Origin: Rhizobiales bacterium Ga0077524
Lineage (GTDB): Bacteria; Pseudomonadota; Alphaproteobacteria; Rhizobiales; Hyphomicrobiaceae
Reading direction: 5' to 3'
NCBI GenBank assembly: GCA_001464755.1
Contig: LNDR01000379.1
Coordinates: forward strand, 1 to 32,923
Length of the DNA stretch: 32,923 nucleotides
In this document: in pieces, positions 6,408 through 21,841 of the stretch
Position numbering within the stretch: position 1 is the first letter of the stretch
How the letters are laid out: every line of letters starts with the position of its first letter
Translations under genes and position numbers: made by a program
The notes under the pieces: generated by a model
What the model saw: the letters and a program-made list of their open reading frames with translations, nothing else
The model's database searches: none
Told to the model about the DNA's origin: nothing

Positions 6408-6674
6408 ATGAACGACGGCGCGCGCGCAGGACTAGCGGTGAACGATCCAACGGGGCGGCATGAGCTTATGCACCACAAGGACGACAATGGGCCCGGAGCT
6501 GATGGGCAAGCACCAGTACCGCCGAAGGACGATCACGTCGTCCTGCCGGTTGAGGCGCAAGGACGCATCGGCCAGCATCTTCGGCGCGTCTACGCCGAGA
6601 TTTTAGCCGAGCCACTGCCGGACAAATTCTCAAAGCTCTTGAATGAGCTTGCCAAATCGGAGCGCTCGGAATGA
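6408..6674 (+). CDS. nepR: NepR-family anti-sigma factor
   Basis: An 88-residue protein with a disordered, charged N-terminal half. The C-terminal half carries the NepR two-helix core: RIGQHLRRVYAEILAEPLP then DKFSKLLNELAKSE, matching the family pattern LR-vY-e-l-EP-PD-f--LL--L. NepR binds and holds EcfG in unstressed cells and is released when phosphorylated PhyR takes its place. ATG 6408 is chosen because GGGGA lies 9 bases upstream; ATG 6399 would abut that site, and an internal ATG at 6471 would still retain the core. The stop overlaps the ecfG start by four bases (ATGA), giving translational coupling of anti-sigma and sigma. An exact EcfG promoter lies at 6324-6348. Confidence 0.95.
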   Translation: MNDGARAGLAVNDPTGRHELMHHKDDNGPGADGQAPVPPKDDHVVLPVEAQGRIGQHLRRVYAEILAEPLPDKFSKLLNELAKSERSE

Positions 6675-7228
6675 GCAGTGCAACCGATTCCTCCAACCTG
6701 CCGAAGGAGTTGGCGCAGCTCGTGCCCAATTTGCGCGCGTTCGCCAGATCCCTGTGCGGGAACGCCGATCAGGCAGATGATCTGGTTCAAGAGACCTTGG
6801 TCAAGGCGTGGCGCAGTCGGGCGTCCTTTGCCCCCGGCTCCAACCTCAAGGCGTGGTTGTTCACAATTCTGCGCAATACGTTCCTCTCGGAGAGACGTAA
6901 GCGGAAGTTCGAGGTCCACGATACGGACGGAAAGCTCGCCATGCAGCTCAGCGTCAAGGGCAACCAGTCCGGGCATATGGATCTTCTGGATTTCTCAAAG
7001 GCGTTCGCGACATTGCCGGAGGAGCAGCGCGAAGCTCTCATTCTGGTTGGGGCCGAAGGGTTCGCCTACGAGGATGCGGCTCTGATGTGTGGTTGTGCGG
7101 TCGGTACGATCAAAAGCCGAGTCAATCGCGCAAGGGTCAAGCTCGCGGAGTTGCTCGGCGTGACGGACGCCGGCGAATTGTTGTCGGACAACGCAAGCGA
7201 AAGCCCGGTTAGGCTTCACGCGCCGTGA
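6671..7228 (+). CDS. ecfG: EcfG-family ECF sigma factor (general stress response)
   Basis: A 185-residue ECF sigma factor. Sigma region 2 is at about 15-78 (LRAFARSLCGNADQADDLVQ, ETLVKAWR, NLKAWLFTILRNTFLSERRK). Region 4 is at about 113-165 (LPEEQREALILVGAEGFAYE, CAVGTIKSRVNRARVKLAEL). Sequence and context identify EcfG (sigma-EcfG, also called RpoE4 or SigT), the general stress sigma of Alphaproteobacteria. It recruits RNA polymerase to GGAAC-N17-GTT promoters, of which seven are present in the first 7.4 kb of the window. It follows nepR with a 4-base overlap and precedes phyR, the classic partner-switch locus. No terminator is evident after 7228. Confidence 0.97.
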   Translation: MSSATDSSNLPKELAQLVPNLRAFARSLCGNADQADDLVQETLVKAWRSRASFAPGSNLKAWLFTILRNTFLSERRKRKFEVHDTDGKLAMQLSVKGNQSGHMDLLDFSKAFATLPEEQREALILVGAEGFAYEDAALMCGCAVGTIKSRVNRARVKLAELLGVTDAGELLSDNASESPVRLHAP

Positions 7229-7394
7229 CACCCGACGAAGTTGTAGCTCGCGGTGCCAGCAGCGAGCATCTTCGGCGACGTCCTTCCGGAATGACTTAAC
7301 TCACGAAATTCAAAGGAGTTTCCCAAGACGTTCTCGGAGGCATGGAAAGACAGTTGGTACCTATAAGCTCTTGCAGAAAAATTTTGGCATTGTG

Positions 7395-7419
7395 GGAACC
7401 ATCGGTTGATCCGTGCGTT
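7395..7419 (+). promoter_or_regulatory. EcfG-type promoter for phyR
   Basis: GGAAC (7395-7399), a 17-base spacer and GTT (7417-7419) preceded by C, ending 41 bases before the phyR start. PhyR would therefore be under the control of the sigma factor it frees, a positive loop. Confidence 0.87.
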
Positions 7420-7460
7420 GTCGTTTCTAGCCATCAGCGGCACGTGGGGAGTTGCACTGC

Positions 7461-8276
7461 ATGAGTATTTCGATTGCGGACGTCGTAGCGCCGCAGCTTC
7501 CATCCTTGCGCCTGTTCGCGCGAGCATTGACGGGCTCACAGGAGCGGGGCGACGCATACGTCGTCGCGACCCTCGAGGCGTTGGTTGCCGACAAGGGGTT
7601 GCTACGCCGTGACGTGGCCCCGAAAGCGGCGACGTATCGTGCTTTCCTAAAGGTATGGGAAGCGATGCCGATGAACGGCGTGACAGAACCCACCGAGAGC
7701 GGCGCGAGCGCAGTGGCTGACCGCCGTATCGAGACACTGACACCCAGACCACGTCAGGCATTCCTTCTGACGGCGCTTGAGGAATTCGGACCGGCGGATA
7801 TCGCGTCGATCCTGGATATCGGTGAAAGTGATGTCCGGGCCCTGGTCGACGAGGCGGGTCGCGAGATCGCCAATCAGATCGCGGCGCGGGTGCTGATTAT
7901 CGAGGACGAGCCGTTGATCGCCCTCGATCTCGAATCAATCGTGACCGAGATCGGCCACGAGGTGGTCGGCATATCGGCGACGCGCAGCGAAGCGGTGGCG
8001 GCGGCCCGGAAGTCGCGACCGGGGCTCGTGCTCGCCGACGTGCAGCTAGCCGATGGGAGTTCGGGTATTGACGCGGTGAACGATATTCTCGGCGAGATCG
8101 ACGTACCGGTCATCTTCATCACCGCTTATCCCGAGCGTCTGCTCACGGGAGAGCGAGCCGAGCCGACCTTTCTCATCACTAAGCCGTTCCGGTCAGAGAT
8201 GGTCAAGGCAGTCATGAGCCAGGCTCTGTTCTTCGATATTCGCGCGGGCCGGCCACGTGGTGATGCTGCCGCGTAG
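7461..8276 (+). CDS. phyR: PhyR-type response regulator (anti-anti-sigma factor)
   Basis: A 271-residue protein. Residues 1-140 form the sigma-like domain (region-2-like LPSLRLFARALTGSQERGDA; region-4-like TPRPRQAFLLTALEEFGPAD). Residues 143-257 form a receiver with the acidic pair in IIEDEP, phospho-acceptor Asp193 (LADVQL), Thr221 (IFITAYPE) and Lys241 (TKPF), so all catalytic residues are intact. Once phosphorylated, PhyR opens its sigma-like domain, binds NepR and frees EcfG. ATG 7461 has GGGGAG about 11 bases upstream. The expression signal is the EcfG promoter at 7395-7419. The HWE kinase 128 bases downstream is the likely phosphodonor. Confidence 0.97.
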   Translation: MSISIADVVAPQLPSLRLFARALTGSQERGDAYVVATLEALVADKGLLRRDVAPKAATYRAFLKVWEAMPMNGVTEPTESGASAVADRRIETLTPRPRQAFLLTALEEFGPADIASILDIGESDVRALVDEAGREIANQIAARVLIIEDEPLIALDLESIVTEIGHEVVGISATRSEAVAAARKSRPGLVLADVQLADGSSGIDAVNDILGEIDVPVIFITAYPERLLTGERAEPTFLITKPFRSEMVKAVMSQALFFDIRAGRPRGDAAA

Positions 8277-8404
8277 CGGCAACTCGTATCATCGCTAAGT
8301 TGGTCTTCAAGGCCGACATCAATGCATGAATCGATGGACGGTCCCCGAGCCTTCCCCGGAAGTGGCGTAGCGTGCTTGCGTAACAGCGACAAGTCGAACC
8401 CTTG

Positions 8405-10582
8405 ATGGAGAAGAATGCGCCAAACGCGGTGTTCGAAAACGCCGACGACGGCTCGTCGATAGAGTCACTGCTTGGTGGCGCTATGTTGGCGTCGAGCATT
8501 GATTGCGTGAAGCTCGTCGGTGTTGACGGTCTGGTCGAGTTTGTGAGTGACCGAGGGCGATTGTTGCTCGAGCTGGAGGCGGAGACCAGCCTCGTTGGGC
8601 AGCGTTGGACGAGCCTTTGGCCCGACGAGACGCGACCCATCGTCGAGGAGGCCCTGACCAGATCTCTCCGCGGCGAGGTCGTCCGCTTCACCGGGCTGTG
8701 TCCGACCGCCAGGGGCATACCTAAGTGGTGGGATGTCGCCGTCAGCCCGGTGCGAGACACGACTGATGCGATCCGCCACCTGCTCTGCGTTTCGCGCGAC
8801 GTCACCCAGCAGAAGGCGATCGAGCACTCGTTGCAGGCGAGCGAGCAGCGTTTCCGGGCCCTTGCCGACAATATGGCGCAGCTCGCCTGGATGGCCGACG
8901 CCCACGGCGACGTCTTCTGGTTCAACAAGCGGTGGACGGAGTACACGGGCACGACGTTGGCCGACATGAGCGGCAGAGGCTGGCACAAGGTGCACCATCC
9001 GGATTTCGTCGAGGGCGTCGTGGCACGCGTGAATGAGGCGTTCAAGGATCGCTCGATGTGGGAGGAGGTACTGCCGCTGCGAAGCCTGGACGGCAACTAC
9101 CGATGGTTCCTCTCGCGGGCCGTACCAGTGACCGACGAGTCGGGCCGCGCCGTGCTGTGGTGCGCAACCCACACCGACATCACGGAGCAACGCATTCTCG
9201 GACAGCGCTTGCGCCAGCTTGCGCGCGTCATCGAACTCTCGCACGAAGCCATGCTGGTGTGGGACATCGAGGACGGCATCATCCTGTGGAACAAGGGTTG
9301 CGAAGAGCTTTACGGATATCGCCGCAGCGAGGCTCTCGGTGCGGCGCCCCAGGAGTTGTTGGGCGTTATCCCCTCCGATGGTGCCGAGAGCCTGCGGCAG
9401 CGGCTGCTCCGCGACGGAGAGTGGAGTGGCGAGATCATGCACCGGGCCAAGAACGGCTCGGAGATTTGGGTGGACAGCCGGCTGGAGTTGATCCGCGCCG
9501 GCGGCCGCAATCTGGTACTCGAGACCAATCGCGACATCACCGAGCGGCGAACTGCAGACGCGATTCGCGACTTGCTGGTCGCTGAACTCAATCATCGGGT
9601 GAAGAATACGCTCGCCATCGTGCAATCATTGGCCTCCCAGACGGCGCGAACGCAACCCGACATGCCGGCCTTCGTTGCCAGCTTCATCGGGCGCCTCCAG
9701 TCTCTGGCGGCCGCTCAGGCAATCCTCTCCGATGCCCATTGGTCGGGCGCGCGTCTGCGCGATCTCGTGGCTTCGCAACTCGCGATCACCATCGGGCCGA
9801 GCGATGTCACGACGCTGACGGGCGAGGATGTGTTCTTGCCGCCGCAGACGGCGCTCCAGCTGACTCTGATCCTCCACGAGTTGGCAACCAATGCTAAACG
9901 CTATGGTGCGCTGTCGTCGGACCAGGGGCGGGTCGCGATCGCGTGGCACCTGGAGTCTGGGGCGCCGCGCCGCGTCGTGCTCGACTGGAAGGAAAGTGGT
10001 GGCCCGTCAGTCGATGCTCCGAGGGATCGCGGGTTTGGTCGGCAATTGATCGAGCGAACCGGGCGGCTGCCGTATCTCCAGTCGAAGCTCGAGTTTCCAC
10101 CTGAGGGCGTCCGGTGTCGTGTTTGGGCGGAGTTGCCGGAAGCAGATCAGACGGGCCCCGGGTACTTCGACCCAGGAGGAGGTTCGGCGGAGGCCGTTGG
10201 CCGCGCACCGTTTCCCCCACCGAGGAGTCGGCGCGTTTGGCGGCGGATTCTTGTCGTGGAGGATGATCCGGTCGATGCCCTGCGTATCGAGGCGGTGCTC
10301 GCGGATGCCGGGTATCTGGTGTTCGGGTCGGCGCGATCGGCGGAGGAAGTGGAGCACGCGCTGCGGGAACTCGCCTTCGATGCGGCGGTGATCGATAGTG
10401 AGGCGGTGGCCATTGATGCCGAAAAGATTCTGGACGAACTCGAGGCACGTCAGCTGCCCGTCATCGCGATTGGTGGGGAGCGAGAGTCGCAGGCCGCGCG
10501 GCAGGATCGAGTCAGGATATCGCGCCCTCTGAACCTCTCTGAACTTCTCGACGGGCTGGCCCGACTGCTGGCGCGACGGTGA
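8405..10582 (+). CDS. Soluble PAS-PAS-PAS HWE histidine kinase with degenerate C-terminal receiver (PhyK-like)
   Basis: A 725-residue protein with no membrane helix. Three PAS/PAC units: about 25-140, 148-262 (FRALADNMAQLAWMADAHGD) and 272-382 (IELSHEAMLVWDIEDGIILW). The HWE kinase core follows: phospho-acceptor His397 (NHRVKNTLAIVQSLASQ), N-box HELATNA with the family His491, and W528-K-E530. A Pro/Gly linker leads to a receiver at about 612-723. That receiver keeps the acidic patch (VEDD) and an Asp at the acceptor position (664), but the conserved Thr is Gly (IAIGG) and the conserved Lys is Arg707 (ISRPLN). It may therefore act as a phosphate sink or modulator rather than a normal switch. 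Its place beside phyR suggests it phosphorylates PhyR. No exact EcfG promoter is found in the 128-base gap; no strong ribosome site precedes ATG 8405 or the TTG before it. Confidence 0.92.
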   Translation: MEKNAPNAVFENADDGSSIESLLGGAMLASSIDCVKLVGVDGLVEFVSDRGRLLLELEAETSLVGQRWTSLWPDETRPIVEEALTRSLRGEVVRFTGLCPTARGIPKWWDVAVSPVRDTTDAIRHLLCVSRDVTQQKAIEHSLQASEQRFRALADNMAQLAWMADAHGDVFWFNKRWTEYTGTTLADMSGRGWHKVHHPDFVEGVVARVNEAFKDRSMWEEVLPLRSLDGNYRWFLSRAVPVTDESGRAVLWCATHTDITEQRILGQRLRQLARVIELSHEAMLVWDIEDGIILWNKGCEELYGYRRSEALGAAPQELLGVIPSDGAESLRQRLLRDGEWSGEIMHRAKNGSEIWVDSRLELIRAGGRNLVLETNRDITERRTADAIRDLLVAELNHRVKNTLAIVQSLASQTARTQPDMPAFVASFIGRLQSLAAAQAILSDAHWSGARLRDLVASQLAITIGPSDVTTLTGEDVFLPPQTALQLTLILHELATNAKRYGALSSDQGRVAIAWHLESGAPRRVVLDWKESGGPSVDAPRDRGFGRQLIERTGRLPYLQSKLEFPPEGVRCRVWAELPEADQTGPGYFDPGGGSAEAVGRAPFPPPRSRRVWRRILVVEDDPVDALRIEAVLADAGYLVFGSARSAEEVEHALRELAFDAAVIDSEAVAIDAEKILDELEARQLPVIAIGGERESQAARQDRVRISRPLNLSELLDGLARLLARR

Positions 10583-12116: not shown

Positions 12117-13490
12117 ATGACCGTGATTGCGAACAGCCTGCATGCGCTGGACGTGCAGAGCCTCATTCATCCCCAGTCGAACCTGCGGCAGCACCAGGAG
12201 CAGGGGCCGAGCATCATTACGCGCGGCAAGGGGATTTTCGTCTACGACGACGATGGTCGGGAGTACCTCGAGGCAGCGGCTGGCCTGTGGTGCGCCTCCT
12301 TGGGCTTCGGCGTCGAGCGGCTGGCGAAGGTCGCCTACGACCAGATGTGCAAGGTTGGCTACTATCATATCTATCGCAGCGCTTCGAACGAGAGCGCCAT
12401 CGAGCTCGCAGCCAAGCTGCTCGAGATGTCGCCGGTGCCGATGTCGAAGGTCTTCTTCCAGTGCTCCGGCTCGGAGGCCAACGACACCGCGGTGAAGCTG
12501 GTCTGGTATTTCTGGCATGCGCACGGCAAGCCCTGGAAGCGCAAGATCATCGGGCGCAAGATGGGTTATCACGGCTCGACGTGCGCCTCGGCGAGTATCT
12601 CGGGTAAGCCCGACATGCACCAGGAATCGGGGCTGCCGTTCGATGCGTTCCGGCATACCGAGTTTCCGAATTACTACCGCAACCAGCTACCCGGCGAGAC
12701 CGAGGAGCAATTCTCGACGCGCATGGCGGCGGCTCTGGAGAAGCTGATCCTCGAGGAGGGACCGGAGACGGTCGCGGCGTTCTGGGCCGAGCCCGTCATG
12801 GGAGCGGGCGGTGCCGTTCTTCCTCCGGCCGGCTACTTCGAGAAAATCCAGGCGGTGCTCAAGAAGTACGACATCCTCTTTGTTGCGGACGAGGTGATTT
12901 GCGGCTTCGGGCGGACGGGTAAGATGTGGGGGAGCCAGACCTTCAATCTGAAGCCCGACATGATCTCGTGCGCGAAGGCGCTATCGGCCGGAGTACAGCC
13001 GATCTCGGCGCTGCTGCTCAACGAGCGCGTCTTCCAGGCGTTGATGATCGAGACCGACAAGGTTGGACATCTGGCGCACGGCTACACGTATGCGGGCCAT
13101 CCAGTGACGACAGCGGTCGCACTCGAGACGATCAGGATTTACGAGGAGATGGACCTGATCGGCCATGTAGGACGCGTATCGGAGCCGTTCATGGGCGGGC
13201 TCACTGCGCTCGAGGCGCATCCGCTGATTGGCGAGTTCCGGGGCGTCGGGCTGATCGGTGCGCTCGAGGTGGTGAAGGACAAAGCGACCCGCGAGATGTA
13301 TCCGGGCTCTGCTGGCGTGATGGACATTCTCGCCAAGAACGCCAAGAAGCACGGGCTGATCCTGCGGCTCGTAGGCAACCGCATCGCATTCTCGCCGCCG
13401 CTGATCATCACCGAGGACGAGGTCGGCGAGATGATCAAGCGTCTGACGTCGGCCCTCGACGATACGTGGTCGGCTGTGCGGGCGAATTGA
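12117..13490 (+). CDS. Class III (omega) aminotransferase, PLP-dependent
   Basis: A 457-residue class III pyridoxal-phosphate aminotransferase. Motifs: substrate and phosphate contacts GLWCASLGFG, HIYRSASNES, CSGSEANDTA; YHGSTCASAS; cofactor Asp258 in VADEVICGFGRTG; and Schiff-base Lys287 in MISCAKALSAG. GHLAHGYTYAGHPV places it in the omega-amino acid or amine:pyruvate group. It moves an amino group from an amine or non-alpha amino acid to a keto acid; the donor cannot be told from the sequence. GGAG lies about 11 bases before ATG 12117. It is divergent from the DUF2254 gene and convergent with the deacetylase-like gene. Within the catabolic block it is the likely step that disposes of or salvages amine nitrogen. 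Confidence 0.93.
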   Translation: MTVIANSLHALDVQSLIHPQSNLRQHQEQGPSIITRGKGIFVYDDDGREYLEAAAGLWCASLGFGVERLAKVAYDQMCKVGYYHIYRSASNESAIELAAKLLEMSPVPMSKVFFQCSGSEANDTAVKLVWYFWHAHGKPWKRKIIGRKMGYHGSTCASASISGKPDMHQESGLPFDAFRHTEFPNYYRNQLPGETEEQFSTRMAAALEKLILEEGPETVAAFWAEPVMGAGGAVLPPAGYFEKIQAVLKKYDILFVADEVICGFGRTGKMWGSQTFNLKPDMISCAKALSAGVQPISALLLNERVFQALMIETDKVGHLAHGYTYAGHPVTTAVALETIRIYEEMDLIGHVGRVSEPFMGGLTALEAHPLIGEFRGVGLIGALEVVKDKATREMYPGSAGVMDILAKNAKKHGLILRLVGNRIAFSPPLIITEDEVGEMIKRLTSALDDTWSAVRAN

Positions 13491-13593
13491 GGGGGCCATA
13501 AAGGCCGTCTCGGTCTCTGCCCTCGATCTGGCTCTCTCCCCATTCAGGTGCAGAAACGGGGGGAGGGCACAAACCGGATGACTCGGTACCCGA

Positions 13594-14490
13594 TCAGCCT
13601 CCCGGTACGGTTCCGGCCGGGAGCGACTTGACATGCGATGCGATCGCACCTGGCTGCGTGAGCCAGATGCGGTCGCGGTGGCGCAGGATGTGCTGCATCG
13701 CACGGCGTAGCTGGCGGATGCGGAACGGCTGGCCAAGCAGGAATGTGTGCAGCACGAACGGGCACACGAGCGACTGGCCACGCTCCGACTGCTCGAGCAT
13801 CTCGTCGAATTGGTCGATCCACATATCCATCAGTTCGACGGCGGTGTGCTGGCGCATCACGAGCGTCGGGGAATCGTTGATTTCGATCGGGTAGGGCATG
13901 TTGAGGATGCGGCCATTCCTCGTTCGCATCCAGATTGGCTGGTCGTCGAGTGGCCAATCACACTGGTAGACGTATCCGGCCTCCTGCAGCAGATCGAGCG
14001 TCACGCGGCTCTGCGACAGCCAGGGGCTCATCCAGCCGACGGGTTGCTTGCCGGTGAATTTTCGGATGGTCTCGGTGGACTCTGCGATCAGACGGGCCTC
14101 GTCCTCCTCCCACATTTCCCCCTGGCGCTCGGCATTGGTGCGGCCATGGGCGACGAACTCGTCGCCGCGAGCCAGCATGCGCGCGCCGATGTCGGGGTGC
14201 TGGTCGAGGATCATCGAGTTGAGATTGTGGGCGAGCGGGCATTCGAGCTCGTCGAAGAGATCGAACATTCTCCAGATGCCGACGCGGTTGCCGTAGTCGC
14301 GCCAGGCGTAGTTGCGCTGCGACTGGGGCGCGGAGACGCCGGTGCTGTCGGAGCCGAGGCCACTTCCGAAAGCGAAATATTCGATGTTGTTGCAGAAATA
14401 GACGGCGAGGCGCTTCCCGCCCGGCCAAGTGTAGTCCGGCCGCTTGGTGATCGGGACGTAATCATAGCGGCTATGGGCGGGGAGTTTCAT
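13594..14490 (-). CDS. Polysaccharide deacetylase-fold hydrolase, PuuE-like
   Basis: A 298-residue NodB-fold protein. The motifs WRDYGNRVGIWRMFDLFDEL and EFVAHGRTNAERQGE, followed by WMSPWLSQS, fit the PuuE subgroup rather than chitin or peptidoglycan deacetylases. That subgroup includes the metal-independent allantoinase PuuE. The usual metal-binding Asp-Asp pair of deacetylases is not seen in the first strand (YFCNNIEYF), as in PuuE. It is therefore probably a cytoplasmic amide or ureide ring hydrolase, not a cell wall enzyme; there is no signal peptide. ATG 14490 is preferred over ATG 14499 because AGGA lies about 9 bases before the former and abuts the latter. It follows the SDR gene 36 bases downstream on the same strand, so the two form an operon. 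Confidence 0.87.
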   Translation of the reverse strand: MKLPAHSRYDYVPITKRPDYTWPGGKRLAVYFCNNIEYFAFGSGLGSDSTGVSAPQSQRNYAWRDYGNRVGIWRMFDLFDELECPLAHNLNSMILDQHPDIGARMLARGDEFVAHGRTNAERQGEMWEEDEARLIAESTETIRKFTGKQPVGWMSPWLSQSRVTLDLLQEAGYVYQCDWPLDDQPIWMRTRNGRILNMPYPIEINDSPTLVMRQHTAVELMDMWIDQFDEMLEQSERGQSLVCPFVLHTFLLGQPFRIRQLRRAMQHILRHRDRIWLTQPGAIASHVKSLPAGTVPGG

Positions 14491-14526
14491 CGATGCCATT
14501 CCTGTCAGAGACGTTTCGGGATGTCG

Positions 14527-15282
14527 TCAGGCCATGTAGAGGCCGCCGTTGGCGTGGACCACCTCGCCGGTCATGAAACGGGATCGGTCTGACGCCAGGA
14601 ATACGATGATATCGGCAATGTCGCCCGGCTGGGCCATGGCGCCGAGCGGCACGAGGCGGGACTGCTCGGCCATCTCGGTTTCGCTGAACTGGTATCGGGG
14701 TTGCGCCGTGTCGGTGATGCCTGGCGCAATGGCGTTGACGCGAATGCCATGCGGCGCGAGGGCAAGGGCCATCGAGCGGGTGAGGCCGATGATGCCAGCC
14801 TTGCTGGCCGAATAGTGGACACCGAGGACGTGGCCGCGCACGGACGACGAGGAGAGATTGATGATGCTGCCTTTGCGGCCGGCGGCGACCATGCGGCGCG
14901 CGACGGCTTGAGCGACGAGGAAGCTGCCTTTCAGATTGACGCTGTGGACGAGATCCCATTCGGCTTCCTCGAGCTCGAGAAAAGGCGATCGGGGAAAAAC
15001 GCCGGCGTTGTTGACGAGAATGTCGAGGCCGCCAAGGGCGTCGTCGGCCTCGGCGACGATGCGGCCGGCCTCGGCGCCCGTGGCGACGCTGCCTTGGACG
15101 ATCACGGCCTTGCGTCCGAGCGCGGTGACGTCGGCGGCGACAGCCTCGGCGGCAGCTCGATCGTCCAGCCAGTTGACGGCGACATCGGCGCCGCCTCGGG
15201 CCAACGCCAATGCGGTTGCCCGTCCTATGCCTTGCTGCGCGCCCGTGACCAAAGCGCGCCGCCCTTCGAGGTCCGATTGCAT
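14527..15282 (-). CDS. Short-chain dehydrogenase/reductase (SDR)
   Basis: A 251-residue classical SDR. Cofactor loop TGAQQGIGRA; NNAG (VNNAGVFPRSP); catalytic Ser in INLSSSSVRG and the Tyr-x-x-x-Lys pair in HYSASKAG; C-terminal FMTGEVVHANGGLYMA. The acidic residue expected for NAD preference is not obvious; the loop after beta-2 reads NWLDDRAAA, so the cofactor is left open. It oxidises an alcohol or reduces a ketone; the substrate is unknown. ATG 15282 has GGGAG 8 bases upstream; in-frame codons further up lie inside the intergenic region. It is first in a leftward pair with the PuuE-like hydrolase and is divergent from the amidohydrolase gene at 15368, with only 85 bases between. Confidence 0.93.
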   Translation of the reverse strand: MQSDLEGRRALVTGAQQGIGRATALALARGGADVAVNWLDDRAAAEAVAADVTALGRKAVIVQGSVATGAEAGRIVAEADDALGGLDILVNNAGVFPRSPFLELEEAEWDLVHSVNLKGSFLVAQAVARRMVAAGRKGSIINLSSSSVRGHVLGVHYSASKAGIIGLTRSMALALAPHGIRVNAIAPGITDTAQPRYQFSETEMAEQSRLVPLGAMAQPGDIADIIVFLASDRSRFMTGEVVHANGGLYMA

Positions 15283-15367
15283 CGTGCTAGCTCCCGAGGT
15301 CAATCTGTCGATGGAATGGTAACGCCCTCCGCGCAACCGTCCATTCTCAAATCAAGGAGCTTGCATC

Positions 15368-16660
15368 GTGTCTCCCTCCAGCGCCGAGATCCGTCGTGCC
15401 GTCCTTTCCCAGGAGGGTGACGTTGCTGCCCTGTTCGACGAGTTGCGTGCGGGCAGCCTCGATCCGGTCGGGCCGGGTGTGACGCGGGACACGTTCGGGG
15501 CGGGTGAGCAATTCGGCTATCGCGTGATTGAGAGGGTGGCACGCGGTCTCGGTCTCGAGCAGAAGTACGACCACGCGGCCAACCTTTTCATGACGCTGCC
15601 AGGGCGTGACCGTGGGCGCCCGCGCATCATGATGGGCTCGCATCTCGACTCGGTCGGGAATGGCGGCAATTTCGACGGGGCGGCGGGGGTTGTCGCGGGG
15701 CTCGTCGCGATGGGGGCGCTGAAGGCTCTGGGTATTCTGCCGGCCTGCGACGTGACGACAATGGCGATCCGGGCGGAGGAAAGCGTCTGGTTCGAGGTCT
15801 CGTACATCGGCTCGCGGTCGGCGTTCGGAGTGCTTCCGGACGGTGCGCTCGAGGCCAAGCGCACGGATACGGGCCGCCCGCTCGCAGAGCACATGGCGGA
15901 GTGCGGCGCCGACGTCGATGCGGTGCGCAGGCGGGTGGCCTCGCTTTCGGCGAGAGACATCGCAGCGTGGGTGGAGGTCCACATTGAGCAGGCCCCCCAG
16001 CTGATCGAGGCCGGCCTGTCGGTAGCCGTCGGCACGGGGGTGCCAGGCAACTTCCGCTATCCGGAGATCAACATTCACGGCGAGTGGGCGCACGTGGGAT
16101 TGCCGCGGCGCTTCCGTCACGATGCGGTGCTGGCAGCGAGTGATTTCGCGCTTGGCCTCGACGAGATCTGGAAGGCAGCGGACGCCGCAAAGCGGCCGAT
16201 GGCCTTCACGATCGGCCGCTTCTACTCGGATGCACGGGAGCATGCGCTGACGAAAGTGGCGGGGTTGATGACACTGAGCCTCGACGTCCGGGCCTACGAC
16301 AAAGCCCACCTGATCGACCTTGAAGCCCAGGTTCTGGCGCTCGCGCGCGACATCGAGAGGAACCGCGGCGTGCGCGTGGATCTCGGCAAGCGGGCGTCGG
16401 CGGACGTGGCGCCCTCCAATCCGCAGCTGATGCATGCGCTGACCGAGGCGGCAGGCGCCATCGGCATCCCAACCATGCCCCTCGCCAGCCCCGCGTCACA
16501 CGATACGGCGACATTCACGGTGGCCGGCGTGCCGTCGTGCATGCTGTTCGTGCGCAATGCGAACGGTAGCCACAATCCCCACGAGGCGATGGAAATCAGC
16601 GATTTTCTCGATACGGCGTCAGTGCTGACGCAGTGGCTCGTCGGTGCCGTGCACGAGTAA
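15368..16660 (+). CDS. M20-family Zn-dependent hydrolase (N-carbamoyl-amino acid hydrolase / allantoate amidohydrolase type)
   Basis: A 430-residue M20/M28-fold dinuclear zinc amidohydrolase of the hydantoinase/carbamoylase group. Metal and catalytic motifs in order: GSHLDSV (His92, Asp94), NFDGAAGV (Asp103), catalytic Glu137-Glu138 (RAEESVWF), HIEQAP (His205), and a C-terminal NGSHNPHEA histidine. The family removes carbamoyl or ureido groups to release ammonia and CO2. EESVWF replaces the usual EEG-RF and HIEQAP replaces HIEQGP, so the substrate pocket may differ. The start is GTG 15368 with AGGAG 8 bases upstream. Standing beside a PuuE-like ring opener and an aminotransferase, it would fit ureide or hydantoin-like breakdown. 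Confidence 0.9.
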   Translation: MSPSSAEIRRAVLSQEGDVAALFDELRAGSLDPVGPGVTRDTFGAGEQFGYRVIERVARGLGLEQKYDHAANLFMTLPGRDRGRPRIMMGSHLDSVGNGGNFDGAAGVVAGLVAMGALKALGILPACDVTTMAIRAEESVWFEVSYIGSRSAFGVLPDGALEAKRTDTGRPLAEHMAECGADVDAVRRRVASLSARDIAAWVEVHIEQAPQLIEAGLSVAVGTGVPGNFRYPEINIHGEWAHVGLPRRFRHDAVLAASDFALGLDEIWKAADAAKRPMAFTIGRFYSDAREHALTKVAGLMTLSLDVRAYDKAHLIDLEAQVLALARDIERNRGVRVDLGKRASADVAPSNPQLMHALTEAAGAIGIPTMPLASPASHDTATFTVAGVPSCMLFVRNANGSHNPHEAMEISDFLDTASVLTQWLVGAVHE

Positions 16661-16764
16661 CCGATGCGGCTCGCGACGGCCGTGGTGTTGTCATTTCGGC
16701 GCAATCGCGCGTCCGGCGTCGGGTCTCACAAGAGGCAAGGCTCGACCCGATCTCCGGGTTCACG

Positions 16765-18411
16765 TCACGCCAGCTCCGGCACGAGGATCGGGTCGAGGGC
16801 GGGCTTGCCGAGGACCATGTCGGCGCCCTTCTCGGCGATCATCATGGTTGCGGCATTGAGGTTGGCCGAGATCATGGCGGGCATGACCGAGGCGTCGATC
16901 ACACGCAGGCCCTCTATGCCGCGAACACGCAACTGATCGTCGACGACGGAGGTCGGGTCGTTGGCGGGGCCCATGCGGCAGGTGCCCATCAGGTGGTAGG
17001 TGCTCGAGCCCCATTGGCGGGCTGCGGCGAGCAACTCGTCATCGGACTGGACGTTGGCGCCTGGGTACTCCTCGCCGTCGAGATAGGGCTTCATCGGCGT
17101 CGTGTTGATCAGCCGGCGGGCGAACTTCATGGCGGCGACGGTGACGCGGCGGTCGGTCTCCTCGGCGAGATAGTTCGGCTGGATCGACGGCTTGTCGAAC
17201 GGGTCGGACGAGCGGGCACGCACATAGCCGCGACTGACCGGGCGGTGCTGCCAGGCCGCGACGGTGAGGCCCGGGAAATCGTCGAGCAAGCCGTGTCGGC
17301 CCTGCTTGTAGCTCGCCGGCGTGAACAGGAATTGCAGGTCGTTCGGGCGCGTCGCCTCGTCGGAGTGCCAGAAGCCGTAGACCATGGAGGGGCTGAGCGC
17401 GAGAATACTTTCACGGCCGGTGAAGTATTTGACGATCTCTCCCGCGAGGCGGAGGCCCTTCGAGCGCTCGTTCAAGGTCCCGATGCCCTTCACGCGCACG
17501 CCGAAACGGGGCGCGTAGTGATCGGCGAGGTTCTCGCCGACGCCGGCAAGCTCGTGGCGCACCTCGATACCAAGGGAGCGCAGCAGGGCACCGGGACCGA
17601 TGCCGGACACCTGCAGCAGTTGGGGCGAGTTTACCGAGCCGCCGGAGACGATCACCTCGCGACGGGCGTGGACCTCGGTGAGGGCGCCGCCCCGGCCGCC
17701 CTTGGCATAGGCGACGCCGACGGCGCGCTTGCCTTCGAGGATAAGCCGCGCGGCATGGGCGTTGGTTCGGATGGTCAGGTTGGGGCGTGAACGGGCGGGG
17801 TCGAGGAACGCGCGCGCGGTCGACATGCGGCGGCCCTTGTTGGCCGTGCGCTGCACGTAGGAGATGCCCTCCTGGCGCTCGCCGTTGTAGTCCCGGTTGC
17901 GGGGGATGCCGAGCTCGGCGGCACCTTTCAGGAAGGCTTCGCACAAGGGATGCGTCACGCCGAGATCGGTGACCGTGAGATTGCCCTGGCGGCCGCGGAA
18001 CGTATCGTCGGCATCACCGATACGCTGCTCGGTACGCCGGAAATAGGGGAGAACGTCGTTATAGCCCCAGCCGCGGTTTCCCTTCTGAGCCCAACCGTCG
18101 AAGTCCATGCGCTGGCCGCGATTGTAGATGTGACCGTTGATAGACGACGAGCCGCCGAGCGTCTTGCCGCGCGGCACCGCGATGACGCGGCCGTTGGTCC
18201 ACTCGCTGGTCTCGGCCTCGTAGAGCCAGTTCACGCTCTTCATTGTGAGCGTGTGGATAAAGCCGGCAGGAATGTGAATGAACGGGTGCCAATCCCTGGG
18301 GCCTGCCTCGAGCACGCAGACCGAATGGCGGCCATCCGCCGACAGCCTGTTCGCCAGAATGGACCCGGCCGAGCCTGCTCCCACGATTACATAGTCGAAC
18401 GTATCCGCCAT
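16765..18411 (-). CDS. GMC-family FAD oxidoreductase (choline dehydrogenase-like)
   Basis: A 548-residue glucose-methanol-choline oxidoreductase. N-terminal FAD-binding VIVGAGSAGSILANRLS; GMC signature 1 region RGKTLGGSSSINGHIYNRG; GMC signature 2 region SGGSVNSPQLLQVSGIGPG; C-terminal HLMGTCRMG and RVIDASVMPAMISANLNAAT with the active-site His/Asn region. It oxidises a primary or secondary alcohol using FAD. Length is normal for the family. ATG 18411 has GGAGGCG upstream at good spacing. It is divergent from the unknown gene at 18623; the 211 bases between hold a doubled operator-like sequence. Convergent with the amidohydrolase gene, 104 bases apart. Confidence 0.94.
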   Translation of the reverse strand: MADTFDYVIVGAGSAGSILANRLSADGRHSVCVLEAGPRDWHPFIHIPAGFIHTLTMKSVNWLYEAETSEWTNGRVIAVPRGKTLGGSSSINGHIYNRGQRMDFDGWAQKGNRGWGYNDVLPYFRRTEQRIGDADDTFRGRQGNLTVTDLGVTHPLCEAFLKGAAELGIPRNRDYNGERQEGISYVQRTANKGRRMSTARAFLDPARSRPNLTIRTNAHAARLILEGKRAVGVAYAKGGRGGALTEVHARREVIVSGGSVNSPQLLQVSGIGPGALLRSLGIEVRHELAGVGENLADHYAPRFGVRVKGIGTLNERSKGLRLAGEIVKYFTGRESILALSPSMVYGFWHSDEATRPNDLQFLFTPASYKQGRHGLLDDFPGLTVAAWQHRPVSRGYVRARSSDPFDKPSIQPNYLAEETDRRVTVAAMKFARRLINTTPMKPYLDGEEYPGANVQSDDELLAAARQWGSSTYHLMGTCRMGPANDPTSVVDDQLRVRGIEGLRVIDASVMPAMISANLNAATMMIAEKGADMVLGKPALDPILVPELA

Positions 18412-18622: not shown

Positions 18623-20233
18623 ATGCCCCAGACAGAAGCCTCCGCTCAGAACATCCCCACAGATGCCCGCCGGCTCTACGACAAGCTCGAAGAGCGCATC
18701 CTCGATCGCGATCAGGTTGGCGCCAGCCAAGCCTACTACGGCCTCGTCAAGGCCGGCCGGCCGCTGCCGGAGTTGGTCAACGAAGGGGTTCGCATCCACG
18801 CGCCACTCACTCACGTCCCCTATCACGAGCGCATCGACAAAGGCTTCGTGAACTTCGTCAACAACGACCACTGCCTGCTTTCCGCACGCGCGACGACGCA
18901 TCTGGCCAAGTTGATGCCGAAGGAACTCGCCGGGCTGCCGATGGCGCAGACGGTCTGGTACATCCCGACCGGGCTCGATATCTGGAACCAGAAGATCAAC
19001 AAGGCGCCAGGGCACTATTCGCGCGGCATGGAGCCGATCAAGGGTGCGCCGGTGAAGCCCGTCGTGCACTGGCCGGACCAGACCGCCGAGCACATCGAGG
19101 GCTCGCTCGACGAGAAGCTCGACCAGTGGCTGGATCTTGTGCACCGCGGGCACGTGCTCGATGCCTATCGCGTGTTCCTCGGCATCATGGAGGAGCCGGG
19201 GAGCCGCAAGGAGGCGCTGGCGCAACTGTGCTTTGCGGGTCTGATCGACCTGCAGGATCGGGTCTATCTCAATCGGTCCTACACCACGGGGCACAAGTCG
19301 TTCCGGGCGCGGGCGACAGTGGAACTCGGCAATTTCGTCGGCTGGGACAACGCCCATCACGTCCTCTACGCAGGTGCGCTCGACATCGGCATTGGGCCGC
19401 GCTGGTACTCGACCTACGAGATGGCCTGCAACTGCATCACGCACTACATCGAGAAGCAGAAGATGTCTGCAATTCCCTATGGCGGGGCGACGGCGAAGGA
19501 GGCCGAAATTCTGCGCCAGACGACGCCGTTGTCGAAGGACGAGGCCGAGGCCTTCCTCGACGTGGTGCTCCATGGGCAAGAGCCGGGCTTCCAGGAGGCG
19601 CTCAGTCGATTGTTGCTGGCGGGTAAGGGGCCGCGGCAGATCCTCGACGTGCTCCAGGTCGGGGGCGCGCAGGTGCTGCTCGAGACGCAGGACACGCTGA
19701 ATTTCTCGATTCCCCAGCATTGCTATGAGTATCTCAATACGCTTGGCTGGTTTTACGATACGTTCGAGCATCCGCAGCGCTTGAAGCTGCTCTATGTTGC
19801 GACGGCATATCTCAACCGGAATGCGTGGCACAATCGGCAGGTCGGTGATGGGCGAGAGGCACGGGCCGATCTGCCATCCGGCGCCAACGCGAAAAGCACG
19901 AGCCAGATGCTCGAGCAGGTCGCCGCAGCGACAATAGCGCTCGACGGGCCGCAGGCGATTGCGTGGGCGCGCGCCTATCTGGCGTCCGGTGGTGACGGTG
20001 GTGCGCTCGCGCAGCAGTTGGCCATCGCGGCGACGCGCATCGGTAACGATCCCCACAATCAGGAGCTCGGGCAGCTTCTCGTCGAAGATTACGTCAAGAA
20101 CCGCAGCTTCGACCGTAACCGGCTGCTGCTCGCCTGCGTCCAACACACGGCGGTGCACCGCAAGTACGGCGACTACCTCGAGGCGAGCCGACGCTATGGC
20201 GATGCCATGGGGATCGGCGGGCTGGCAGCGTGA
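18623..20233 (+). CDS. Conserved-looking all-helical protein of unrecognised family
   Basis: A 536-residue soluble protein that I cannot assign to a family. Predicted to be almost entirely helical, without signal peptide or membrane segment. The N-terminal half is rich in His, Asn and aromatic residues: THVPYHERIDKGFVNFVNND, GLDIWNQKINKAPGHYSRGM, ELGNFVGWDNAHHVLYAGAL, YSTYEMACNCITHYIEK. The C-terminal half looks like helical repeats (SRLLLAGKGPRQILDVLQVG, NFSIPQHCYEYLNTLGWFYD, FEHPQRLKLLYVATAYLNRN). Several His/Cys clusters could bind a metal or cofactor, but no known motif is met. The questin-oxidase-like families share a similar helical, His-rich style; this is only an impression. ATG 18623 has AGGAG 8 bases upstream. 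It is followed 36 bases later by an SDR on the same strand and is divergent from a GMC oxidoreductase, so it probably works in the same catabolic route. Confidence 0.85.
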   Translation: MPQTEASAQNIPTDARRLYDKLEERILDRDQVGASQAYYGLVKAGRPLPELVNEGVRIHAPLTHVPYHERIDKGFVNFVNNDHCLLSARATTHLAKLMPKELAGLPMAQTVWYIPTGLDIWNQKINKAPGHYSRGMEPIKGAPVKPVVHWPDQTAEHIEGSLDEKLDQWLDLVHRGHVLDAYRVFLGIMEEPGSRKEALAQLCFAGLIDLQDRVYLNRSYTTGHKSFRARATVELGNFVGWDNAHHVLYAGALDIGIGPRWYSTYEMACNCITHYIEKQKMSAIPYGGATAKEAEILRQTTPLSKDEAEAFLDVVLHGQEPGFQEALSRLLLAGKGPRQILDVLQVGGAQVLLETQDTLNFSIPQHCYEYLNTLGWFYDTFEHPQRLKLLYVATAYLNRNAWHNRQVGDGREARADLPSGANAKSTSQMLEQVAAATIALDGPQAIAWARAYLASGGDGGALAQQLAIAATRIGNDPHNQELGQLLVEDYVKNRSFDRNRLLLACVQHTAVHRKYGDYLEASRRYGDAMGIGGLAA

Positions 20234-20269: not shown

Positions 20270-21049
20270 ATGCTGCTCAAGGACAAGATCGCGATTGTGA
20301 CTGGGGCCGGGCAGGGCATCGGCTCCGCGACGGCGATGGCGTTGGCAGAGGCCGGCGCCACGGTCGTCACAGCCGACATCGACGGCAAGCTTGCCGAAGC
20401 GGCCGCGCAGGCGATCCAGGCGCATCAGCGCAAGGCCCTCCCACTGACCGTGGACGTCGGCGACGTCGAGAGCATCCAGAGTATGGTCGACCGGACCCTG
20501 GCGGCGCATGGGCGGATCGACATCCTCGTCAACAATGCCGGTGTCACGCGACGCGCCGACATTATGGACATCACCGAGGCCGACTGGGATCGCATCCATC
20601 GCGTCAACGCGAAGGGCGTGTTTTTCTGCCTGCAGGCGGTGGCGCGGGTGATGATCAAGCAGCGTGGCGGGCGGATCATCAATATCGCCTCGATCGCGGG
20701 CAAGGGCTACGCGGGCACGTCGAATGCGGCCTACGCGGCGAGCAAGGGCGCCGTTATCAGCCTGACCAAGACTGCGGCCCAGCAGCTGGGCAAGTACGAC
20801 ATCAACGTCAACTCTGTCTGCCCGGGCGTAACCCGGACGGCGCTAGGCGAAGCCAATTTGCGCGTCCGAGCCCAGGAGGAGGGGCTCAGCATCGAGGCGA
20901 TGGATGCCAAGCGGCTCGAGGCGATCCCCATCCGTCGAGCCAACGATCCGGCTGATATCGCGGCAATGGTGGTGTTTCTGGCGTCTCCAGGCGCGCGCAA
21001 CATCACTGGCCAGTCCTACAACGTGGACGGCGGCATCGTCCCGGATTGA
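20270..21049 (+). CDS. Short-chain dehydrogenase/reductase (SDR)
   Basis: A 259-residue classical SDR. TGAGQGIGS cofactor loop; an Asp after beta-2 (VVTADIDGK) that favours NAD(H); NNAG (VNNAGVTRRADIM); Ser in INIASIAGKG; Tyr-x-x-x-Lys in AAYAASKGA; C-terminal ITGQSYNVDGG. It would interconvert an alcohol and a ketone, plausibly the product of the neighbouring oxidation steps. Start ATG 20270 follows AGGAG by about 9 bases. It lies 36 bases after the unknown 18623-20233 gene, so both form one rightward operon. It converges with the exported protein gene at 21077. Confidence 0.94.
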   Translation: MLLKDKIAIVTGAGQGIGSATAMALAEAGATVVTADIDGKLAEAAAQAIQAHQRKALPLTVDVGDVESIQSMVDRTLAAHGRIDILVNNAGVTRRADIMDITEADWDRIHRVNAKGVFFCLQAVARVMIKQRGGRIINIASIAGKGYAGTSNAAYAASKGAVISLTKTAAQQLGKYDINVNSVCPGVTRTALGEANLRVRAQEEGLSIEAMDAKRLEAIPIRRANDPADIAAMVVFLASPGARNITGQSYNVDGGIVPD

Positions 21050-21076: not shown

Positions 21077-21745
21077 TCACCGTTTGCGCGAGACGCAGTC
21101 CTTGCCGTCCCAGCGCAGACGCTTGCCGCAGCCGGGCATCGGCTCGGCCCAGCCGGTCTCCGCGGGTAGCGTGGCGGCATCGGCTCGGCGCGGCGTCTGT
21201 TCAGGCAGTAGGATGCTTCGCTCCGAGGCGGTGTCGCGGGCCTGCCAGTCAGTGCCGGCAAGGATGACGGCAGCTTCCAGCATCAGGCCGTCGCGCAGGG
21301 GGGCAGACCAGCCGTGACCGGCTTCGTAGAAGCGGTAGAAGCGCGTAACGAAGCGAACGCTCACAACGTTGCCTTCGCCGCGATTGATCAGGCAGAAGGG
21401 CGCTTGCGCTTGGACCAAGCCGTCGCGCGGCCCGGAATCGGGCGTGGGCGGCGTCAGATCGAACGGATTGCGCTTTTCGCCCGGCATCGTGTAGGCGGCG
21501 AAGTGGCCCCGGTCGTTGGCGAGCCAGAGCTGCTCGAATAAAGTCTGCGCGCTTTGGATCGCCGTCGAGAACTCGACAGTGACGGCGGTGCAGGGCTCCC
21601 AGCTCGATTTCTCCCCAAGGGCTGCGGCTGGCCCCACCGAAAGCCCGCGCTCCTGGCCGCCGGCGACATGGAGCGAGATGGTCAAGGCCAGCCCAAGCAG
21701 CACTACCGCGCAGGCGCCGTCGCGTCGTCTCGCCAAAATCCACAC
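21077..21745 (-). CDS. Putative exported protein of unknown function
   Basis: A 222-residue protein with no family that I recognise. The N-terminus (WILARRRDGACAVVLLGLAL, then TISLHVAGG) looks like a signal peptide with an Arg-rich n-region. The mature part has four cysteines spread out (SWEPCTAV, APFCLINRG, PGCGKRLRW, KDCVSRK), which could form disulfides in the periplasm. GTG 21745 is preferred over an in-frame TTG at 21781 because it puts the charged residues right at the start and has GGCGGTG upstream; neither site is strong. It is the last gene of a leftward set with SnoaL-like, CMD-like and enoyl-CoA hydratase genes, starting about 96 bases after the SnoaL-like stop. Real gene status is likely but not certain. 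Confidence 0.65.
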   Translation of the reverse strand: MWILARRRDGACAVVLLGLALTISLHVAGGQERGLSVGPAAALGEKSSWEPCTAVTVEFSTAIQSAQTLFEQLWLANDRGHFAAYTMPGEKRNPFDLTPPTPDSGPRDGLVQAQAPFCLINRGEGNVVSVRFVTRFYRFYEAGHGWSAPLRDGLMLEAAVILAGTDWQARDTASERSILLPEQTPRRADAATLPAETGWAEPMPGCGKRLRWDGKDCVSRKR

Positions 21746-21841
21746 TCCGCCATCACCGCCGCGACCTGACGCGCCAGTCAATCGCGACCGCGATGGTGAT
21801 GGTCAACGGAGACTTGTCGGCATGGCAAACGGCGCCTTGCC

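Follow-up and report, generated by a model that had tools for sequence, protein, structure and literature searches.

The open reading frame at positions 18,623 to 20,233 of the window (the whole stretch of 32,923 nucleotides that was analysed) raises the question of what a helical protein encoded in a block of catabolic genes may do. An earlier note had preferred to a structural role that of a new cofactor- or metal-dependent enzyme, possibly of oxygenase type, a view that proves largely right in the light of the match of its predicted structure to a dioxygenase fold and of the invariant histidines at the metal-site motifs of that fold. The reading developed here, to which we give a probability of roughly two in three, is that the protein cleaves a C-C bond in an electron-rich (hydroquinone-like) substrate, acting with O2 as a mononuclear non-heme Fe(II) dioxygenase of the questin-oxidase/BTG13 fold. 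The case for a dioxygenase arises from the structural ranking, from an exact register in three templates and from the pattern of conservation.

A coding gene of patchy distribution

The gene, referred to as the core gene, is described as follows.

18623..20233, plus strand: predicted 4-His/1-Glu non-heme iron dioxygenase of 536 residues with a questin-oxidase-like fold, subfamily A (open reading frame, ribosome-binding site, relatives, alignment, AlphaFold2 model, VIA-align)

Its ATG start, its stop and its length of 536 residues are exactly as first proposed. A Shine-Dalgarno-like AGGAG is located 7 nt 5' of the ATG, and of the codons that differ from those of a 94%-identical orthologue (locus L001), 152 are changed synonymously and 30 non-synonymously, 170 of the 206 base changes being at third positions. 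Given this AGGAG and the synonymous and third-position bias, 18623-20233 is a real coding gene under purifying selection.

Relatives of the core protein were detected at at least 204 loci in a collection of genomes from 84,980 species, 80 of which were kept for analysis. The kept relatives come mainly from Alphaproteobacteria (Reyranella, Vineibacter, Acetobacteraceae/Rhodopila, Rhodospirillales and a few Hyphomicrobiales), Gammaproteobacteria and Binatota being rare sources. The spread is patchy, since the gene is present in 3 of the 60 nearest relatives, all from the same genus, and in 2 of 299 genomes sampled across the phylum; a tblastn search of plasmids with the core protein gave no match. 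In terms of composition, the protein had been described as His-rich with His/Cys clusters: its histidine content of 3.9% is indeed the highest among the compared proteins of the block (1.2-3.8%), but its cysteine content is an ordinary 1.1%.

Sequence searches and predicted fold

The single core protein gave no usable match against Pfam, NCBIfam and PDB sequence models, and a 52-sequence profile of its family gave no match against Pfam, NCBIfam and PDB. As regards PF14027 (Questin_oxidase/DUF4243), this profile matches neither the core protein at E<=10, nor any of 52 family members (the core protein and 51 homologues) at E<=1, nor anything in the source genome. Profile-profile comparison with 11 bacterial PF14027 members gave a score of 20.5 when subfamilies A, B and C (see below) were combined, which is inside the range of 60 column shuffles (mean 16.3, max 24.6), and a score of 24.8 for subfamilies B and C, just over the 60 shuffles (max 22.1); the best local alignments fall in both cases on the DxHxx(K) motif. 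An hhalign comparison of the 52-sequence alignment with a 3-sequence PF14027 alignment was discarded, its result being meaningless. As these scores are not, or only marginally, above those of shuffled profiles, homology to PF14027 is not claimed on statistics alone. By sequence, the core protein is not filed as a PF14027 member, the profile being unmatched and the lysine of its motif absent.

The AlphaFold2 model, built from the 52-sequence alignment (pLDDT 86.1, pTM 0.90), is mostly helical, as anticipated from the letters. Foldseek searches against the PDB and viral models returned only noise, with E-values that are not significant, and the dioxygenase family surfaced only when VIA-align re-ranked Foldseek's own candidates. 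The top four rows of that ranking, whose Z-scores of 13-16 are, according to the tool's note, close to the reach of chance for helical proteins, form a single family of questin-oxidase-like ring-cleaving dioxygenases: BTG13 (7y3x; Z 15.6, rmsd 4.2, 338 aligned residues), 8yxs, titled a non-heme iron dioxygenase in the PDB (Z 15.5, 342 aligned), and the hydroquinone dioxygenase PaD (8z4q and 8z4r; Z 14.2 and 13.7, 342 aligned). The next row, unrelated, has a Z of 7.8 over about 100 residues, and the questin-oxidase-like dioxygenases are the sole family that matches the model over most of its length (about 340 residues). For the greater part of the chain, a mostly helical, BTG13/PaD-like fold is thus predicted. 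The earlier note had named a clear match with a characterised family as one result that would refute its view; such a match is found at the level of the fold and not at that of the sequence.

A second model, made as an independent check, restricted to residues 78-486 and built with 70 homologues (pLDDT 86.6), aligns with the dioxygenase templates with Z-scores of 13.3, 12.6 and 11.7. At its C-terminal end, residue 486 of the core protein corresponds to residue 382 of BTG13, 394 of 8yxs and 402 of PaD. These offsets place E481 on K377 of BTG13, K389 of 8yxs and K397 of PaD, each of them the lysine of a DDxHxxK motif. The N-terminal end of the fragment model is of low confidence and is uninformative for H83.

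The putative metal site

BTG13 binds its iron through four histidines and a carboxylated lysine (Kcx377). The bacterial PF14027 proteins L087, L090 and L091 were gathered and aligned; with E-values of 1e-13 to 1e-7, their profile retrieves PaD, 8yxs and BTG13 from the PDB and thereby anchors the motifs in BTG13 numbering. The BTG13 motifs are those of H55 (HNHTAH), H158 (GAYHPLI), H296 (FMHMVT), and H374 with K377 (DDGHLAK), and the core protein displays in the same order NNDH83, TGH224K, PQH366CYEY and NDPH478NQE481. The codons concerned are the following.

18869..18871, plus strand: H83 in NNDH, first predicted metal ligand, counterpart of the BTG13 H55 motif (52/52 in subfamily A, 9/9 in B/C)
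19292..19294, plus strand: H224 in TGHK, second predicted metal ligand, counterpart of the BTG13 H158 motif (52/52 in A, 9/9 in B/C)
19718..19720, plus strand: H366 in PQHCYEY, third predicted metal ligand, counterpart of the BTG13 H296 motif (52/52 in A, 9/9 in B/C)
20054..20056, plus strand: H478 in DPHNQE, fourth predicted metal ligand, counterpart of BTG13 H374 (invariant; structural register 486 to 382)
20063..20065, plus strand: E481, at the position of BTG13 K377 (Glu in 71/71 subfamily A sequences; register to K377, K397 and K389)

The counterparts of the four BTG13-type histidines, assigned by the structural register at the H478/E481 end and by motif order for H83, H224 and H366, are invariant in the 52 plus 9 sequences. 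The position of the carboxylated lysine is occupied by glutamate in all 71 subfamily A sequences. The invariant polar residues include H68, D82, H83, W121, Q123, H224, K225, R228, R230, H366, D476 and H478.

Searching the genomes that carry subfamily A uncovered two sister subfamilies, both unnamed and lacking a Pfam match: subfamily B (L124-L130), with the motif DDPHNQK, and subfamily C, with the motif NDPHVMR, to which L131, L132 and two fragments from the source genome belong. Both resemble the core protein in their full-length homology (E 1e-76 to 1e-118) and in five shared histidines, but they are only about 30% identical to it and are devoid of H59, H64, H383 and C84, subfamily B also lacking H131. 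Position 481 is thus Glu in A, Lys in B and Arg in C. The only histidines identical across the three subfamilies are H68, H83, H224, H366 and H478; as H59, H64, H131 and H383 are not common to all, the shared set comes down to the four BTG13-type histidines and H68. H59, H64, H131 and H383 were accordingly rejected as core ligands, each being absent in B and/or C. In the source genome, the subfamily C member is split over two contig ends (C160:15-332, L082, and C114:4775-5470, L083), its N-terminal piece adjoining a gene for an ABC transporter ATPase.

The His/Cys clusters that the earlier note had listed contain part of this putative site: H83 and H366 do not vary in any subfamily and H245 is nearly invariant (48/52 in A, 9/9 in B/C), but most of the clusters are unconserved, and the key positions H224, H478 and E481 lie outside the clusters. 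H93, H246, C271 and H274 show no conservation, while C84, C269 and C367 are conserved solely or mainly within subfamily A. A metal site made of the Cys clusters was discarded, C84, C367, C269 and C271 being unconserved outside that subfamily. Poor conservation of these positions, which had been put forward as an argument against an enzyme, applies to about half of them, the cysteines above all, and spares the core histidines.

Comparison with known enzymes

BTG13 from Cercospora sp. (PDB 7y3w/7y3x/7y3y) shares with the core protein its fold over 338 residues and the DDxHxx(K) register. It differs by a sequence identity of about 9%, by Lys377 where the core protein has Glu481 and by a chain about 90 residues shorter, the core protein having moreover a bacterial catabolic setting and no match to PF14027. 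PaD (PDB 8z4q/8z4r/8z4s) is likewise similar in fold (Z 14.2 over 342 residues) and in motif positions, K397 being aligned to E481, but has kept the lysine. The bacterial PF14027 proteins have the same motif order and spacing (NH ... H ... H ... DxHxxK), whereas they are only about 340-350 residues long and their fifth position is Lys, or Ser in Rhizobium, and not Glu.

Among these PF14027 proteins, five from Rhizobium plasmids (L133-L137) are annotated as questin oxidase family and have Ser in place of the carboxylatable lysine (DEHDIS/DEHDHS); the L133 gene is flanked by genes for a nucleoside deaminase and an amidohydrolase. On a Streptomyces mirabilis plasmid (L139), a long frame combines what by eye is a HAD phosphatase-like N-terminus with a subsequent questin-oxidase domain, a layout resembling that of MinC (HAD + DUF4243) in minimycin biosynthesis (PMC8724604).

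Genomic setting

Two neighbours of the core gene are the following.

20270..21049, plus strand: SDR dehydrogenase, same transcription unit, possible redox partner (Pfam adh_short_C2; gap of 36 nt)
16765..18411, minus strand: GMC oxidoreductase, choline-dehydrogenase-like, divergent neighbour (Pfam GMC; NCBIfam below cut-off)

The SDR gene begins 36 nt past the stop of the core gene and has its own AGGAG. The surrounding block comprises, in its first part, genes for a class III aminotransferase, an allantoinase-like deacetylase, an SDR, a hydantoinase/carbamoylase-type amidase and the GMC enzyme, up to the core gene, and then the SDR, SnoaL, CMD, an enoyl-CoA hydratase, an acyl-CoA ligase and a quinone-oxidoreductase-like protein. 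This whole block is syntenic in L001 and not around the 81%-identical orthologue. The operon with an SDR and the divergent GMC oxidase, pointed out from the sequence at the outset, are hence correctly described for the window and are kept in L001, but this layout is not kept in the 81%-identical relative (L002/L143); a conserved SDR + GMC operon was accordingly rejected, that layout being confined to the window and L001.

A downstream gene on the same strand is found at 58 of the 80 kept loci. In the 52 operon-like loci, for which the tallies are approximate as genes were called mechanically as longest ORFs, the downstream partners are led by TauD dioxygenases (9) and VOC proteins (8), followed by SDR, racemase and P450 (3 each), with luciferase-like oxygenases also among the downstream neighbours; upstream, enoyl-CoA hydratases (11/52) are the commonest, ahead of NHL proteins (8/52). 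As regards a possible pairing of the GedF/GedK type with an NAD(P)H reductase that makes the hydroquinone, an SDR follows the core gene in the window and L001, but is directly downstream in only 3 of the 52 operon-like loci. Since the partners elsewhere are other catabolic enzymes and transporters, a role in the breakdown of small organic compounds may be proposed, and the neighbourhood points to small-molecule catabolism rather than to one fixed pathway.

Beside the core gene, window positions 12117-18411 encode a PuuE-like allantoinase deacetylase, a hydantoinase/allantoate-amidohydrolase-like M20 enzyme, a class III aminotransferase and an SDR, which suggest the breakdown of an N-heterocycle or a ureide-like compound.

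Proposed reaction and competing explanations

From the fold and the conserved residues, we infer the metal, the reaction and the substrate as follows. One Fe(II) would be bound by H83, H224, H366, H478 and E481, and a reduced substrate, hydroquinone- or enol-like, would meet O2 at this iron. O2 may then add to a ring or olefinic carbon, the cleavage of the C-C bond leading either to ring opening or to the loss of a fragment. E481 would provide the carboxylate that carbamoyl-lysine gives in BTG13, so that CO2 would not be needed. The SDR from the same transcript may make or process the substrate, as an anthraquinone reductase does for fungal GedK: in fungi, GedF reduces questin to the hydroquinone, which GedK then ring-cleaves with O2, both oxygens being kept (PMC9890505). 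That the core protein works like a questin-oxidase-type dioxygenase is held with moderate confidence. The family, which is conserved and absent from curated libraries, most likely represents a variation on a known fold and mechanism rather than a new kind of enzyme.

Among the competing explanations, an unlikely one that nevertheless deserves weighing keeps the fold and the metal site but dispenses with C-C cleavage, the protein being a metal-dependent hydrolase, isomerase or monooxygenase with Glu481 as general base. Glu, Lys and Arg all occur at the fifth position, as does Ser in the Rhizobium PF14027 proteins, and the chemistry may therefore differ by subfamily. In the same line, genes of hydantoinase/allantoate-amidohydrolase-like, allantoinase-like, racemase and M81 type occur among the neighbours, and in the minimycin pathway the DUF4243 domain of MinC acts on a heterocycle derived from glutamine (PMC8724604). 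Nevertheless, the nearest solved structures are named dioxygenases in the PDB, and several of the downstream partners use O2.

There is a small chance that the core protein has instead degenerated and, deprived of the fifth ligand, has a 4-His iron site or no iron at all. The lysine that is carboxylated in BTG13 is indeed missing, and GedK was still described as cofactor-free in a 2022 review (PMC9890505); yet the glutamate stands at exactly the position of that lysine in 71 of 71 sequences, and such invariance makes a loss of function look unlikely. Least probable of all is a helical-repeat scaffold or regulator, TPR-like or clamp-loader-collar-like and devoid of enzymatic activity, for although about 100 residues match the MgsA C-terminal domain (Z 7.8 at full length, 12.4 for the fragment) and Pfam MgsA_C is weakly matched by 6 of the 52 members (best E 0.0021; none for the core protein), these matches span only between one fifth and one quarter of the chain, the many invariant polar residues form an active-site rather than a repeat pattern, and the neighbours are catabolic enzymes.

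Coming back to the dioxygenase reading, its fold assignment concerns a protein with relatives at at least 204 bacterial loci, mostly from Alphaproteobacteria, that are recognised by no curated family. A broader proposal, which is tentative and which we hold at somewhat below even odds, is that of a family of bacterial non-heme iron oxygenases, absent from Pfam and NCBIfam, in which the four histidines are fixed while the fifth ligand is swapped (carbamoyl-Lys, Glu, Arg or Ser), the Glu branch acting on a new, non-anthraquinone class of catabolic substrates. If true, nature would offer a series showing how the fifth ligand tunes O2 chemistry, and the Lys/Glu/Arg/Ser exchange would allow the unusual carboxylated lysine to be tested with natural variants. 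As enzymes of this fold cut aromatic and quinone rings, a relevance to carbon turnover in soil and freshwater and to biocatalysis is possible.

Other features of the window

Downstream of the SDR gene, the minus strand carries at 21077-21781 a frame of 234 residues that has no Pfam match and is 66% identical in L001, compared to 88-98% for its neighbours; it is either fast-evolving or mis-called. Further upstream, positions 6671-10582 encode, as judged by eye, a small sigma factor, at 7452-8276 a response regulator resembling PhyR and at 8402-10582 a histidine kinase of PAS/HWE type, a set that looks like a general stress response module.
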